From a virus: DNA of 23,196 nucleotides. The position numbers were made by a program, and so were the translations under genes. How positions within the stretch are numbered: the first letter of the stretch is position 1; each line of letters begins with the position of its first letter. The notes beneath the pieces are model-generated. The model was not told the origin of the DNA. It was given only the letters and a program-made list of their open reading frames with translations, and ran no database searches. Positions 6,958-15,488 of the stretch are shown here, piece after piece. The stretch spans positions 1 to 23,196 of IMG/VR virus record IMGVR_UViG_3300030390_000396; one strand, 5' to 3'.

Positions 6958-7349
6958 TGGATAGCCTTTTTTACACAATGCGGATCGTGCTGCTCTTGTA
7001 GTAATTCTAATACTTGAAACCAACCATCTGGCAGCATTAATGTTTCTTTACCTTTTGTAGGTGTCAGCTGCGTAACTCTAAGGCTAACAACTTCTCTATT
7101 CTCATTGGCTTGATAGAAAACCAGGAAGGAAGGTAAACTAGCTAGATTGGCTAACGCTTCAGTAGTCGTTGTCGCTTTCCACGTCTGGCCCCGATCAAAG
7201 CACGTCTCGGCCAGATACAACGGAATTTTACAAACCTTGCAAATACCAACCGCATCCATATCAATCATGTAAACTTGATTATTTCTGCACCACTCGGAAT
7301 ACGGATCGCCAGTATTAAAATAATTACCTTTTAAAGTTCCTCTAACCAA
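6954..7349 (-). CDS. Possible PD-(D/E)XK-like nuclease next to the methyltransferase
   Basis: A 131-residue protein starting at a TTG at 7349 that overlaps the end of the methyltransferase gene and has a strong GGAGGT Shine-Dalgarno 5 bases upstream. The core shows YMIDMDAVGICKVCKIPLYLAETCFDRG and later ALANLASLPSFLVFY. A D-x-D, then a strand ending in an acidic residue, then a P-S-F-L-V-F-Y strand recalls small PD-(D/E)XK nucleases, but the usual Lys after the Glu is replaced (E-T-C). A CxxC pair may bind zinc. The nuclease reading is tentative. Its stop overlaps the next ATG. Confidence 0.4.
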   Translation of the reverse strand: MVRGTLKGNYFNTGDPYSEWCRNNQVYMIDMDAVGICKVCKIPLYLAETCFDRGQTWKATTTTEALANLASLPSFLVFYQANENREVVSLRVTQLTPTKGKETLMLPDGWFQVLELLQEQHDPHCVKKAIQ

Positions 7350-8253
7350 GTTCTACCTCCATTATAGCTTTTCCGATTTCTCTTGCGATTTGTGGAACGA
7401 TTGAGTTTCCGAGTGATTTAATTCTGTTTGCTCGATCTTTGTCCAATTCATAGGATAACCCATTAACATTTCTACAAATGTCGGATTGAGCTTCCCACCA
7501 ACTTTCGGTTTTTCCAGAAATTCCATTGCATCTTGAAGTCTTGCTCCGTATGTCATGTGTGGTTTGTTTTTTTTCCGTAGTATGAAACCCCCAGATTTTG
7601 TTCTCTCTACTCTGCTCGATTGTGGGGTGTTGATGTTCGTTGCGTTTGGTGTTGGATACATCATGTGAACTACTTGGGTTAGAGGTGGCTTTTGACCCCC
7701 CGATGATTTCTTCCTCGGGTTCTTGAACTCGTACTGATCGAATGTTGTTGGTGTTGGAAATGTTCTTCTCATTGCAGCCGATGATCCAGACACGTTTTCT
7801 TTGATGCCATGCACCTTTACCGCTAGCTGGTATAATAAGACTTTGCGTTTCGAAACCTTCGCTTTCCAAGTCATCGTGGATCTGTCTGAACACCATGCCG
7901 TCTTGGATGTTAATAATGCCTTCAACATTTTCCCCAATGAACCATTTGGGTTTTGTCTCGGATACAATTCTAATAGTCTCATCCCAGAGGAAGCGATCAT
8001 CGTCTGTTCCTCGTCTTTTTCCCGCAACGGAGAATGGTTGGCACGGGAACCCTCCAGTAATGACATCTGCTCTAAATCTTTCTCCTTTGACATTCCTTAC
8101 ATCATCCTCGATTGGTACATTTGGAAAATTCTTTCGTAATACTTTTTGACAAAACTTATCTTTTTCAACAAATGAAATAGTTTTAAAAAATCCCGTGCTT
8201 TCCAAACCAAGCGAGAAACCACCAATGCCAGAAAATAAATCAAGCACATTCAC
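7342..8253 (-). CDS. dcm: Cytosine-5 DNA methyltransferase
   Basis: A 303-residue enzyme transferring a methyl group from S-adenosylmethionine to C5 of cytosine. Motif I is DLFSGIGGFSLG (5-16), motif IV GGFPCQPFS (67-75) with catalytic C71, motif VI GENV (107-110), motif VIII HQRKRVWIIG (150-159). The target-recognition region spans about 160-255, with the Ser/Asn/Thr-rich ISNTNN and VSNTKRN units common in phage enzymes. Motif X is SLGNSIVPQIAREIGKAI near the C-terminus. All catalytic motifs are intact. It probably protects phage DNA from host restriction. The start overlaps the upstream stop by 4 bases (ATGA). A long second reading frame is nested within it. Confidence 0.95.
   Translation of the reverse strand: MNVLDLFSGIGGFSLGLESTGFFKTISFVEKDKFCQKVLRKNFPNVPIEDDVRNVKGERFRADVITGGFPCQPFSVAGKRRGTDDDRFLWDETIRIVSETKPKWFIGENVEGIINIQDGMVFRQIHDDLESEGFETQSLIIPASGKGAWHQRKRVWIIGCNEKNISNTNNIRSVRVQEPEEEIIGGSKATSNPSSSHDVSNTKRNEHQHPTIEQSRENKIWGFHTTEKKQTTHDIRSKTSRCNGISGKTESWWEAQSDICRNVNGLSYELDKDRANRIKSLGNSIVPQIAREIGKAIMEVELG
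7362..8093 (-). CDS. Candidate overlapping gene nested in the methyltransferase gene
   Basis: An alternative frame, offset by one base from the methyltransferase, is open for 243 codons from the ATG at 8093. Its product is not random-looking. It has SSGMRLLELY, then PNGSLGKMLKALL, MTWKAKVSKRKVLLYQLAV, two FPTPTT/YPTPNAT units and GGKLNPTFVEMLMGYPMNWTKIE. From memory, phage proteins with the order SSG...GPLGSL...LTWK...LLFQLxxS, LPTPxAxD, LNPxxVEWLMGxPxGWT recur in databases as hypothetical or methyltransferase-related. The same DNA encodes motif VIII and the EAQSDICRNVNGLS segment in the main frame. No Shine-Dalgarno is evident at 8093. Whether it is translated, alone or by frameshifting, cannot be told here. 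Confidence 0.4.
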   Translation of the reverse strand: MSKEKDLEQMSLLEGSRANHSPLREKDEEQTMIASSGMRLLELYPRQNPNGSLGKMLKALLTSKTAWCSDRSTMTWKAKVSKRKVLLYQLAVKVHGIKENVSGSSAAMRRTFPTPTTFDQYEFKNPRKKSSGGQKPPLTQVVHMMYPTPNATNINTPQSSRVERTKSGGFILRKKNKPHMTYGARLQDAMEFLEKPKVGGKLNPTFVEMLMGYPMNWTKIEQTELNHSETQSFHKSQEKSEKL

Positions 8254-8486: not shown

Positions 8487-8773
8487 TTGAAAGTTATCTC
8501 CGTTACTTCATGCACCCAAGCTGCGGGAATAGTTGTGACGTTACCAACTGTTAAAGATCCATCTTCGTCATCAATAATGTAATCAGTAAAGATTGTTATT
8601 TTTTCTTTTGTGTGAAGTAATTTATAACCCAAGGAAACGGGAGCAGCGGGTTTTGATGCTATTGCTTTATCAAGCTGCATCCAGCCGCTATCGCCAACCG
8701 CATCCAACCAACGCACCTCAACTAATGGATAATTATTTATAGTACCAGTTAATTTTTGTTTCTTTTTATTCAT
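8483..8773 (-). CDS. Hypothetical early protein (YPLVEVRWLDA family)
   Basis: A 96-residue protein from the ATG at 8773, which overlaps the end of the Cro-like gene by 8 bases. A longer in-frame extension to 8899 would read through the Cro gene and is unlikely. It contains YPLVEVRWLDAVGDSGWMQLDKAI, then GYKLLHTKEKITIFTDY and VGNVTTIPAAWVHEVTEI. I recall small phage proteins with the same V-x-W-x-DA, SGW and IPxxWVxEI pattern in lambdoid-type early regions, without known function. It looks like a compact beta-rich fold. Regulation would be from the Cro promoter. Confidence 0.6.
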   Translation of the reverse strand: MNKKKQKLTGTINNYPLVEVRWLDAVGDSGWMQLDKAIASKPAAPVSLGYKLLHTKEKITIFTDYIIDDEDGSLTVGNVTTIPAAWVHEVTEITFK

Positions 8774-8963
8774 AAAAACTGGCTGGCATAACCTTGCCTT
8801 TTGTTTTCTCTTTAATGATTTTAATCCAATTACGACCAGGCATTCGAGATCCCTTGCACCACCTAAATATTGTGGTTGCTGGTGAAACACCCACAACACC
8901 TATTAAATCAGCTAATTTTTTATATGATAAACCTTTTGTAGTTCTAAATTTTTCTAATTGCAT
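8766..8963 (-). CDS. Cro-like HTH repressor
   Basis: A 65-residue protein. The HTH reads LSYKKLADLIGVVGVSPATTIFRWCKGSRMP (about 12-42), and the size fits Cro-type regulators. It is transcribed away from a CI-like gene across a 139-base divergent region. The recognition helix VSPATTIFRW resembles the CI helix VSPVTTFRW, so both probably bind the same operators. A possible -10 (CATAAT, minus strand, 8977-8972) lies so close to the ATG that the mRNA would be leaderless or nearly so. It would open the minus-strand early operon leading to the methyltransferase and terminase genes. Confidence 0.75.
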   Translation of the reverse strand: MQLEKFRTTKGLSYKKLADLIGVVGVSPATTIFRWCKGSRMPGRNWIKIIKEKTKGKVMPASFYE

Positions 8964-9102
8964 TCATTGTCATTATGGAAATGAAACCTTGTTGGCAATA
9001 GAAAGTTGCCAAACTTGTCAACATATAACCAGAGTTGTAAATTACTGTAATTTTTGGTGTAACACTATTGACATAACCAATGCTTTCTGTTTCATTGCCA
9101 CC
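8964..9102. promoter_or_regulatory. Divergent CI/Cro promoter and operator region
   Basis: The clearest site is the perfect inverted repeat TTGGCAA-7-TTGCCAA at 8992-9012. A further half-site, TTGTCAA, follows at 9015-9021. A small palindrome ATTACTGTAAT lies at 9041-9051. On the plus strand TTGACA (9068-9073), 17 bases, then TTCATT (9091-9096) could drive CI from a start close to its ATG. On the minus strand CATAAT (8977-8972) lies just before the Cro ATG. The operator lies over the minus-strand promoter's upstream part, as expected for repression of Cro. Confidence 0.6.
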
Positions 9103-9834
9103 ATGGTAAAAGTTATTGATATTAAAGATATTAAAGATAATAACTCAGATATGTATTTAAAAAAGAAAATGTTAGAAGTTGGAATGGATAGTAAAGAGCT
9201 TGCCTATAAAATGGGTGTATCTCCAGTAACAACTTTTAGATGGGAAAAAGGCGAAAGAAAAATTAGTCCAGAGCAAGCAATATTAATTGCTAAAATTATT
9301 GAATGCGATCCTTCCGATATATTATTTCCAGCTAAAAAAGTTGATACCATAGAATTACATTCTTACGCAGAAGATTACATAGTTAAAAGATTACATAAAA
9401 AAAATTTTAGAGATATTATTGTGCCTGGTGGTTTTTACACACCACAAACAAAAGCTGTTCAATTTTATGCGCCTGGTAGAGAAGCTCATAACGAAATACA
9501 TTTATTTGAAAGATCTGGAGCTACAGATTATGATTATGATGGTTTTAGTGAAGATGCTATCAACAGCACTTGCTATATTGAGCCAAGTGATAAATGTAGA
9601 AAAAAAGGTTGCCGTGATGTTATTTGTTTAATTGAAATAGATAAATCTCAGCCGACATTTAGATTAAATTTATTACATCCAGAAACTAAAAAACCAATGA
9701 CAAAACTTACTTCAACTAATGTAGATCCTAGAGAAATTAAAATTGCTGCACCACGAAAAATGACTTTTTATGAAAGTTATAATAAATATAAGCCAGGCAG
9801 ATTAGCTTCTAATAAAATAAATCCTTACAAATAA
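9103..9834 (+). CDS. CI-like prophage repressor
   Basis: A 243-residue protein from the ATG at 9103 (an ATG at 9151 is also possible). The frame stays open upstream of 9103, but that part would run through the operator region and opposite the Cro gene. The HTH at about 17-60 reads MLEVGMDSKELAYKMGVSPVTTFRWEKGERKISPEQAI. The C-terminal 170 residues do not show the G-x-SM-x-P serine or the lysine of S24/LexA self-cleaving repressors. Instead there is a segment of Tyr, Asp and Cys (CYIEPSDKCRKKGCRD) then DVICLIEIDK, a domain I do not recognise. It should hold the lysogenic state by binding the TTGGCAA-type sites. Confidence 0.75.
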   Translation: MVKVIDIKDIKDNNSDMYLKKKMLEVGMDSKELAYKMGVSPVTTFRWEKGERKISPEQAILIAKIIECDPSDILFPAKKVDTIELHSYAEDYIVKRLHKKNFRDIIVPGGFYTPQTKAVQFYAPGREAHNEIHLFERSGATDYDYDGFSEDAINSTCYIEPSDKCRKKGCRDVICLIEIDKSQPTFRLNLLHPETKKPMTKLTSTNVDPREIKIAAPRKMTFYESYNKYKPGRLASNKINPYK

Positions 9835-14273: not shown

Positions 14274-15488
14274 ATGAAAGTTCAAGTCGTAGAGGAGCTT
14301 AGAGCTGGCGGTAAAAAGTTAGTTGTCCAGGTAGTTTACAAAGTTAATGGTAAAACTAAAAAACAAAACAAAGAAGTTTTTGGTTTAAATGAAAAAAGAA
14401 AAGCTGAAGCCTTAAGATCTAAATTAGAAAATTCTGAAAAAACAGATGTCGTAGATCAGAAAATTACATTTCAAGATGCTTTAAACTCTTACATAAAAGT
14501 ATTAGAGCAAGGCACGTTAAACACTCCAGAGTATGTGCAGATGCAGATTGGTTATATTAAAAACCATGTGTCGCCATACATCAACCAGGAATTTTTATCA
14601 GATTATAAAATGTCTGATTTTAAAGAATTTACATTACCTAAGATTTTATCTAGTAAGCAGCTTGCCTGGAGAACTAAAGACGGCAAGGAATATTATATAA
14701 AATTAGATAAAACCATTGGTAAAAAAACTATTAAAGAAGTAGTTGGCGAATTTAAAAAATTTGTTAAATATTGTTTAGAGCATTCTTGGAAGATTGATTA
14801 TTCAATAATGACTTTTAAATTTCAAAAAAATTTCTTTACTCAATACATTAAGAAAAAAGAATGGCTGCCACAAGCTCACGAATTGTTAAGCGTTCTTAAT
14901 AGTGAAAAAGATATTAAGTTAAAAACATTGTACCAATTAGCTGCCGAGGCTGGCCCGAGAGCTAACGAGGTTGTTGCTGTTTGTTATGATGATATTGACT
15001 TTGATAATGGTAAAATCCACCTTAACCACTCACTAGACAAATGGAATAAATTTAGACCCTACTTCTTAAAAACTGGTGTAAATGCTAGAGATCCAATTAT
15101 GGCATCTGATAAATTATTAACTTTATTAGACATATGGATGAAAACGCAGCTGTTTCCAAAGACTTTAAGAAATACTGTTTACCAGGATCCTTTTACTAAA
15201 GAATTAAAAAAAAGAAATTTTGTTAGAATTTTTGATTTAACTAAAAGTAGAGCTGGTAAAAAAGTAAAACAATCTGCCAAAAAACTTGGGATTGATTGGA
15301 AAAGTGGCTTATCTCCTTTCAGAAAATGGAGCATTTCAAGAATGGAAGATCTTAAAGTATTGACCGAAAAACAAATGGATAAAAGATACGGCAATACTAA
15401 AGAAATTAGAGATAACCATTATTACAAAGATTTGAATTTGAATGAAAAAGAAGGAAGAACTGCTATTAATCAAATAACCGAGGGATGA
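14274..15488 (+). CDS. int: Tyrosine recombinase (phage integrase)
   Basis: A 404-residue integrase with an N-terminal arm-binding domain, a core-binding domain (about 65-190) and a catalytic domain. The first catalytic Arg is R229 in AAEAGPRANEVVAV; the beta-hairpin Lys is K266 in YFLKTGVNARDPIM; the second Arg is R350 in SPFRKWSISR; the nucleophile is Y383 or Y384 in DNHYYKD. The usual His of the H-x-x-R motif is replaced by Ser347, and the second His/Trp is Asn374 (RYGN), so this is a divergent type. It inserts and excises the phage at attP, which lies 500 bases downstream. Confidence 0.9.
   Translation: MKVQVVEELRAGGKKLVVQVVYKVNGKTKKQNKEVFGLNEKRKAEALRSKLENSEKTDVVDQKITFQDALNSYIKVLEQGTLNTPEYVQMQIGYIKNHVSPYINQEFLSDYKMSDFKEFTLPKILSSKQLAWRTKDGKEYYIKLDKTIGKKTIKEVVGEFKKFVKYCLEHSWKIDYSIMTFKFQKNFFTQYIKKKEWLPQAHELLSVLNSEKDIKLKTLYQLAAEAGPRANEVVAVCYDDIDFDNGKIHLNHSLDKWNKFRPYFLKTGVNARDPIMASDKLLTLLDIWMKTQLFPKTLRNTVYQDPFTKELKKRNFVRIFDLTKSRAGKKVKQSAKKLGIDWKSGLSPFRKWSISRMEDLKVLTEKQMDKRYGNTKEIRDNHYYKDLNLNEKEGRTAINQITEG

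Follow-up and report, generated by a model that had tools for sequence, protein, structure and literature searches.

A gene nested in the +1 frame of a viral C5-cytosine methyltransferase gene, probably encoding the target-recognition subunit of the same enzyme

IMGVR_UViG_3300030390_000396 is a 23 kb viral contig with matches to terminase, head–tail adaptor, replication-initiation, and integrase proteins, and the stretch analyzed here, referred to as the window, covers its positions 1 to 23,196. The minus strand of the window carries a C5-cytosine methyltransferase gene within which a second gene is nested in another frame. The methyltransferase frame is called alpha and the nested second frame beta. 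The features of the locus are as follows.

7342–8253, minus strand: alpha, C5-cytosine DNA methyltransferase of 303 aa, GTG start, motifs I–VIII and X (ORF; PF00145 E=3e-57; phrog_363)
7362–8093, minus strand: beta, 243 aa, lying in the +1 frame within alpha and starting at an ATG, proposed subunit for target recognition and motif IX (ORF; phrog_1008 E=1e-20; selection tests)
8106–8109, minus strand: GAGG, weak internal Shine-Dalgarno-like sequence 12 nt upstream of the beta ATG
8097–8099, minus strand: TAA in the beta frame, two codons upstream of the beta ATG
7779–8093, minus strand: beta N-terminal domain, residues 1–105, holding TMTWKAKVSKRKVLLYQL and dual-coded with alpha motifs III–VIII (codon-shuffle z)
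7777–7815, minus strand: alpha motif VIII, GAWHQRKRVWIIG, read by beta as KVHGIKENVSGSS
7662–7760, minus strand: putative beta recognition cassette 1, FPTPTTFDQYEFKNPRKKSSGGQKPPLTQVVHM (recurrence in 6 genes)
7512–7658, minus strand: putative beta recognition cassette 2, YPTPNATNINTPQSSRVERTKSGGFILRKKNKPHMTYGARLQDAMEFLE (member of a cassette family seen in 58 genes)
7437–7499, minus strand: beta motif IX, GGKLNPTFVEMLMGYPMNWTK (hhalign match to the motif IX of single-chain C5 methyltransferases, E=3.7e-10)
7390–7425, minus strand: alpha motif X, RIKSLGNSIVPQ (invariant R277, L281, G282, and N283)
7498–7779, minus strand: alpha readthrough region from motif VIII to the IX/X tail, open, but without a detectable signal of selection on alpha residues

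Alpha possesses motifs I, IV (PCQ), VI (ENV), VIII, and X of the C5-cytosine DNA methyltransferases, together with the invariant residues of these motifs. The PF00145 alignment spans the entire alpha of the window, including the IX/X tail, and the alpha tail may therefore replace part of motif IX. Upstream of the methyltransferase, two overlapping divergent ORFs of helix-turn-helix-like type (8766–8963, minus strand, and 8794–9834, plus strand) resemble a cro/repressor switch, which, together with the integrase match at 14274–15488, suggests a temperate phage.

The sequence-only reading of this window had described a 243-codon frame lying, with an offset of one base, within the 303-codon methyltransferase gene, and its coordinates, lengths, offset, and all of the motifs that it quoted proved to be correct. 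It had also stated that the same series of motifs recurs in phage proteins, and PHROG 1008, labeled "DNA methyltransferase," is indeed the family of the second frame (E=1e-20). Some Paenibacillus larvae phage records annotate the second frame as an "internal gene," and these annotations and PHROG 1008 indicate that the ORF had already been noticed by others.

The second frame is retained across relatives. In all 53 viral-contig loci fetched with beta, it lies inside an alpha gene, and the register is +1 in each except those with the split layout (see below). Furthermore, each of the 80 viral loci fetched with alpha alone (80/80) contains a long open homologous beta frame, while the third frame is open for just ~25–65 codons. 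Beta matches from bacterial and archaeal genomes all (80/80) overlap an alpha in register +1, and the taxa concerned include Bacillota, Pseudomonadota, Bacteroidota, Verrucomicrobiota, Acidobacteriota, Actinomycetota, and others. Fourteen beta-bearing genomes also encode methyltransferases whose PF00145 match runs from end to end, and these have no beta; the PF00145 match of the beta-bearing methyltransferases in the same genomes is mostly restricted to profile positions 1–165. The second-frame family maps inside a cytosine methyltransferase gene wherever the pair is nested, the split layout being the exception. Two outcomes had been named in advance as contrary to dual coding, namely frequent stop codons in the second frame of methyltransferase homologues and second-frame relatives always lying outside such genes. 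No such stops are present in the relatives, and the nested relatives are all inside.

Individual loci show further variations. In three divergent nested pairs (L049, L052, and L053), the beta frame is open from the very start of alpha, and nearly the whole methyltransferase gene is dual-coded. An uncultured Roseovarius chromosome (OX638333.1; L173–L177) holds five nested-pair copies with the same match on separate stretches, perhaps repeated prophages. A prophage methyltransferase of E. coli PCP07014 that is annotated as a pseudogene (L253, 2374–3135) has an internal stop that breaks alpha and a beta-frame stop nearby. A Lokiarchaeota locus (L150, CP070831.1) was considered as a standalone beta and was not counted because masked bases lie over its methyltransferase; the beta of this MAG contig closely resembles those of marine phages, with provirus and contamination being indistinguishable. 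Annotation of the nested-pair class is unreliable. For example, gene callers divide the pair at two loci (L057, 1682–3073, and L054, 2291–3127), calling the N-terminal part a "methyltransferase" and labeling what is really beta as "hypothetical" or as a second "methyltransferase."

Selection was examined in each frame. In the register of the nested pair, codon position 1 of beta corresponds to position 2 of alpha, and position 2 of beta to the alpha wobble position. When the synonymous codons of alpha were shuffled 200 times with the protein and the codon set kept, the longest ORF in the beta frame had a mean of 106 and a maximum of 207 codons, compared to 244 observed. Substitution rates at the three codon positions of alpha (p1/p2/p3) were computed over 2229 pairs among 94 alphas. 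They were.194/.115/.407 in the alpha-only N-terminus upstream of the overlap,.189/.079/.232 over motifs VI–VIII,.442/.315/.378 in the variable region, and.190/.100/.471 downstream of the overlap. Thus, the most variable position shifts from the alpha wobble to the beta wobble in the variable region. Conservation in this region is.515 for beta versus.437 for alpha, and that of the LNP..MGYP block is.884 versus.734.

With the alpha protein fixed and its codons shuffled, the observed similarity of beta was above that of the shuffles in 94 of 94 cases (z 3.7–18), and the frame-specific selection for which the sequence-only reading had proposed a check is present in all of them. Among 39 divergent homologues, the two halves of the N-terminal part of beta gave mean z values of 2.7 and 4.3, versus 0.73 and 0.35 for the alpha-only control regions outside the overlap; these z values are not independent probabilities since the sequences share ancestry, an effect that the control regions guard against. 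In the opposite direction, the alpha frame of 91 genes contains 0 stops, while 537 are expected when the synonymous codons of beta are shuffled. Alpha must read through the cassette region, where the identity of its residues is of little consequence. Both frames are under selection, and the dual coding that had been proposed from the single sequence is supported by the open homologous second frame in relatives, by codon shuffling, and by codon-position rates.

The variable region of beta is a mosaic of modules of ~30–50 residues, each running from a (Y/F/W/L)PTP start to an end near L..AV. A total of 275 modules were cut from 91 genes, with 1–6 modules per gene in variable order. Amino acid identity of cassette 1 over its 6 genes is 0.97 in the beta frame, 0.82 in the alpha frame, and 0.83 in the third frame, and that of the cassette 2 family over 58 genes is 0.87, 0.64, and 0.62, respectively. 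Another cassette, found in 43 genes, has p1/p2/p3 rates of.342/.071/.046 and identities of.90 for beta,.62 for the alpha frame, and.66 for the third frame. Within cassette families, the pattern in beta is that of an ordinary coding frame and the pattern in alpha that of an unselected one, and across the variable region, the conservation of the alpha frame does not exceed that of the unused third frame.

The genes fall into three layouts, of which the nested one, represented by the window, is the commonest. In split pairs (L048, L254, L259, L261, L338, L339, and L341, with L254 being Mycobacterium phage Firecracker gp6/gp5), alpha ends 8–21 residues past motif VIII, and beta lies in another frame and contains the cassettes, LNPDWVEWLMGY, and motif X in one frame. 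Because the alpha frame of L048 has 28 stops across beta and because its layout is common to L259 and L261, this locus is not explained by a simple sequencing error. In single chains (L340, L342, L343, L347, L371, L374, and others, including named mycobacteriophage "DNA methylases"), motifs I–VIII, PTP cassettes, motif IX (LNPRFAEWMMGWP), and motif X are all in one frame. In a quick tree of the catalytic halves, the three layouts cluster apart from other classical enzymes, with the long-branch classical L229 falling among them. Splits of the L048 type are placed beside a nested gene and the actinophage splits among single chains, a placement that requires several changes of layout.

Comparisons with the single chains bear on the identity of beta, which the sequence-only reading had left unnamed. 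Using hhalign, beta aligned with the single chains at E=1.3e-6, and its motif IX with theirs at the value given above. By these profile alignments, motif IX of beta is homologous to the recognition/IX region of the single-chain relatives. The single-chain profile aligns in order with motifs IX and X of HhaI, the second stretch not being significant alone. An AlphaFold model of one single chain had a mean pLDDT of 76, with 88–97 in the motif IX region and low values in the cassette region, and it matched M.HhaI with E=9e-15. Against classical, distant C5 methyltransferases, the beta profile gave a marginal match (E=0.036). Beta alone gave a poor AlphaFold model (pLDDT 52), with which a fold search returned no meaningful match; sequence searches of Pfam, NCBIfam, and PDB with beta gave nothing usable, and no HNH domain was matched in Pfam or NCBIfam. 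These results point to beta as the subunit that gives the same enzyme its target recognition and motif IX. Its cassettes are putative exchangeable target-recognition modules, a reading supported less strongly than that of motif IX in that their homology to the single chains is weaker, and several cassettes in one beta may confer several target sites.

In most nested relatives, the beta ATG lies a few codons past a stop in the beta frame, the position of which varies, and has a Shine-Dalgarno sequence upstream. The arrangement in many relatives is AGGAGG-ATATAAGAA-ATG, and other placements occur as well. Predicted pairing with 16S RNA upstream of the beta ATG has a mean of -9.1 kcal/mol compared to -4.4 kcal/mol after shuffling. 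The window's own Shine-Dalgarno is weak (-5.9 kcal/mol, not significant alone), and an AAGGA directly abuts its beta ATG. Some betas extend ~140 residues beyond the end of alpha as single-coded sequence (e.g., L001 and L012), which is further evidence that beta is a protein of its own. We regard the separate initiation of beta as strongly indicated. A 50-codon ORF in the beta frame (8097–8249, minus strand) starts 4 bases past the alpha GTG, and its end lies two codons upstream of the beta ATG; translational coupling of beta to this ORF by termination and reinitiation is possible.

We propose that the locus encodes a two-subunit (alpha/beta) C5-cytosine methyltransferase with a catalytic alpha and a beta that provides the recognition cassettes and motif IX, and we assign this reading a probability of roughly 0.83. 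Alpha and beta would be started separately on one mRNA, with beta beginning at the internal ATG. Alpha would supply motifs I–VIII (SAM binding, catalytic PCQ, and ENV) and X, and beta would supply an N-terminal or docking part, one to several exchangeable "PTP" cassettes, and motif IX as a small DNA-recognition domain. The two subunits would assemble into one active enzyme, presumably a heterodimer, in which beta picks the sites and alpha flips and methylates the cytosine; the stretch that alpha translates from the cassette DNA would be a tolerated linker. The likely use to the phage would be shielding of its DNA from host restriction. We infer the assembly, the pairing of cassettes with targets, and the anti-restriction role from these comparisons.

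Several other explanations were considered. In the division of functions published for M.EcoHK31I, alpha would retain the target-recognition domain in its variable region, and beta would add just motif IX. We consider this improbable for the window, as beta cassettes are better conserved than the unused frame and alpha-frame cassettes are not; moreover, split alphas stop right after motif VIII without a variable region, and the same cassettes are found in their betas. Still less probable is a programmed +1 frameshift after motif VIII that joins the catalytic half of alpha to the recognition region in the beta frame, with no separate beta. The two frames do meet at motif VIII and the first PTP, and single-chain relatives have exactly that order. 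However, the conserved ATG, the Shine-Dalgarno sequence, and the N-terminal domain of beta, which is itself under selection (z 2.7–4.3), would go unused, and the fusion product of nested genes would be without motif X. We judge equally unlikely that the overprinted beta has an unrelated function, for instance as a regulator or an anti-restriction protein: its fold is unrecognized in isolation and its N-terminal domain has no counterpart in single chains, but its motif IX is homologous to theirs (E=3.7e-10), the split betas continue into motif X, and the single chains hold PTP cassettes in frame. That beta is open by chance or through the codon pattern of the enzyme, with its database relatives being wrong frames, can be dismissed, for although the alpha constraint keeps ORFs moderately long after shuffling (mean 106 codons), both of these alternatives, already raised by the sequence-only reading, are refuted by the codon-position pattern inside cassettes and by the retention in relatives, the codon shuffling, and the regional z values against controls outside the overlap.

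Compared to known systems, the proposed alpha/beta enzyme combines features that have been described separately. In Bacillus phages SPbeta, phi3T, and SPR, multispecific C5 methyltransferases carry, between motifs VIII and IX, several recognition modules that can be exchanged. The window family has 1–6 exchangeable cassettes per gene as putative counterparts of these modules; the Bacillus phage enzymes are single chains, and no second frame is known in them. Single-chain mycobacteriophage DNA methylases (e.g., McProf gene 6 and Ramsey gp69) have PTP cassettes and an LNPxFxEWMMGWP motif IX between motifs VIII and X, as in beta, but differ from the window in being one protein in one frame. The small gene of M.EcoHK31I is said to have been found by Lee, Kam, and Shaw in 1995 to be nested in the large one in another frame, an arrangement matched by the window pair and its nested relatives in the +1 register. 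M.EcoHK31I consists of two polypeptides, with motifs I–VIII and X and a predicted target-recognition domain in the large one and motif IX in the small one, and M.AquI is split within the variable region with motifs IX–X in the small subunit (PMC3404938). M.EcoHK31I (YGGCCR) is the nearest described enzyme, and the window is like it in having motifs I–VIII and X in the large subunit and motif IX in the small one. Unlike M.EcoHK31I, the window has its recognition region selected in the small subunit and built as a cassette mosaic, and its family occurs in phages and in bacteria of many phyla. A weak match in four E. coli genomes was not identified as M.EcoHK31I. M.AquI (CYCGRG) shares with the window a catalytic alpha and a beta with the distal variable region and motif IX. 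Its layout of non-nested genes with motifs IX and X in the small subunit is that of L048 and of Firecracker gp6/gp5 but not of the window, where motif X is in alpha and beta is wholly nested, with an extra overprinted N-terminal domain.

Searches of the literature for phage cytosine methyltransferases with a nested or overlapping gene found only the unrelated ShiLan element and no paper explaining the second frame. The ShiLan domain is a hidden HNH endonuclease in a mycobacteriophage methylase (PMC11855218); it is likewise a second coding frame within a phage methylase gene, but it is a homing endonuclease insertion of unrelated sequence and purpose. What is new here is the breadth of the family, the cassette mosaicism, and the evidence for recognition in beta rather than in alpha.

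We lean, by a small margin over even odds, toward a wider view in which the window represents a class of C5 methyltransferases that is widespread in phages and bacteria. In this class, specificity would reside in a shuffling cassette array in one frame, and the catalytic subunit would read that DNA as a linker that has to stay open but is blank with respect to selection. The nested, split, and fused forms would interconvert, and the recognition domain of M.EcoHK31I, which has been placed in the large subunit, would actually be in the small nested one. Fully nested pairs could persist through divergence on the scale of phyla, since the information would be carried by one frame and the other would need just to remain open. 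What had been a curiosity of one E. coli enzyme would thereby become a broad, testable rule. This rule would explain PHROG 1008, whose members are filed as "DNA methyltransferase" or "hypothetical protein" and are wrongly split or skipped by gene callers, and it would predict where the specificity of many phage methyltransferases can be read. It also offers naturally split, cassette-built methyltransferases, a type that is wanted for targeted methylation.

The C-terminal "IEHWFRKD" extension of beta had no family match, and it looks helix-rich and DNA-binding-like. A beta module ending in KTKIEHWFRKDxCFSYPTxEDW (L001, 2751–3176; L012, 1410–1829; L039, 2454–2891; L044, 2397–2834) varies in position, with some loci having it outside alpha as single-coded sequence and others within the overlap.
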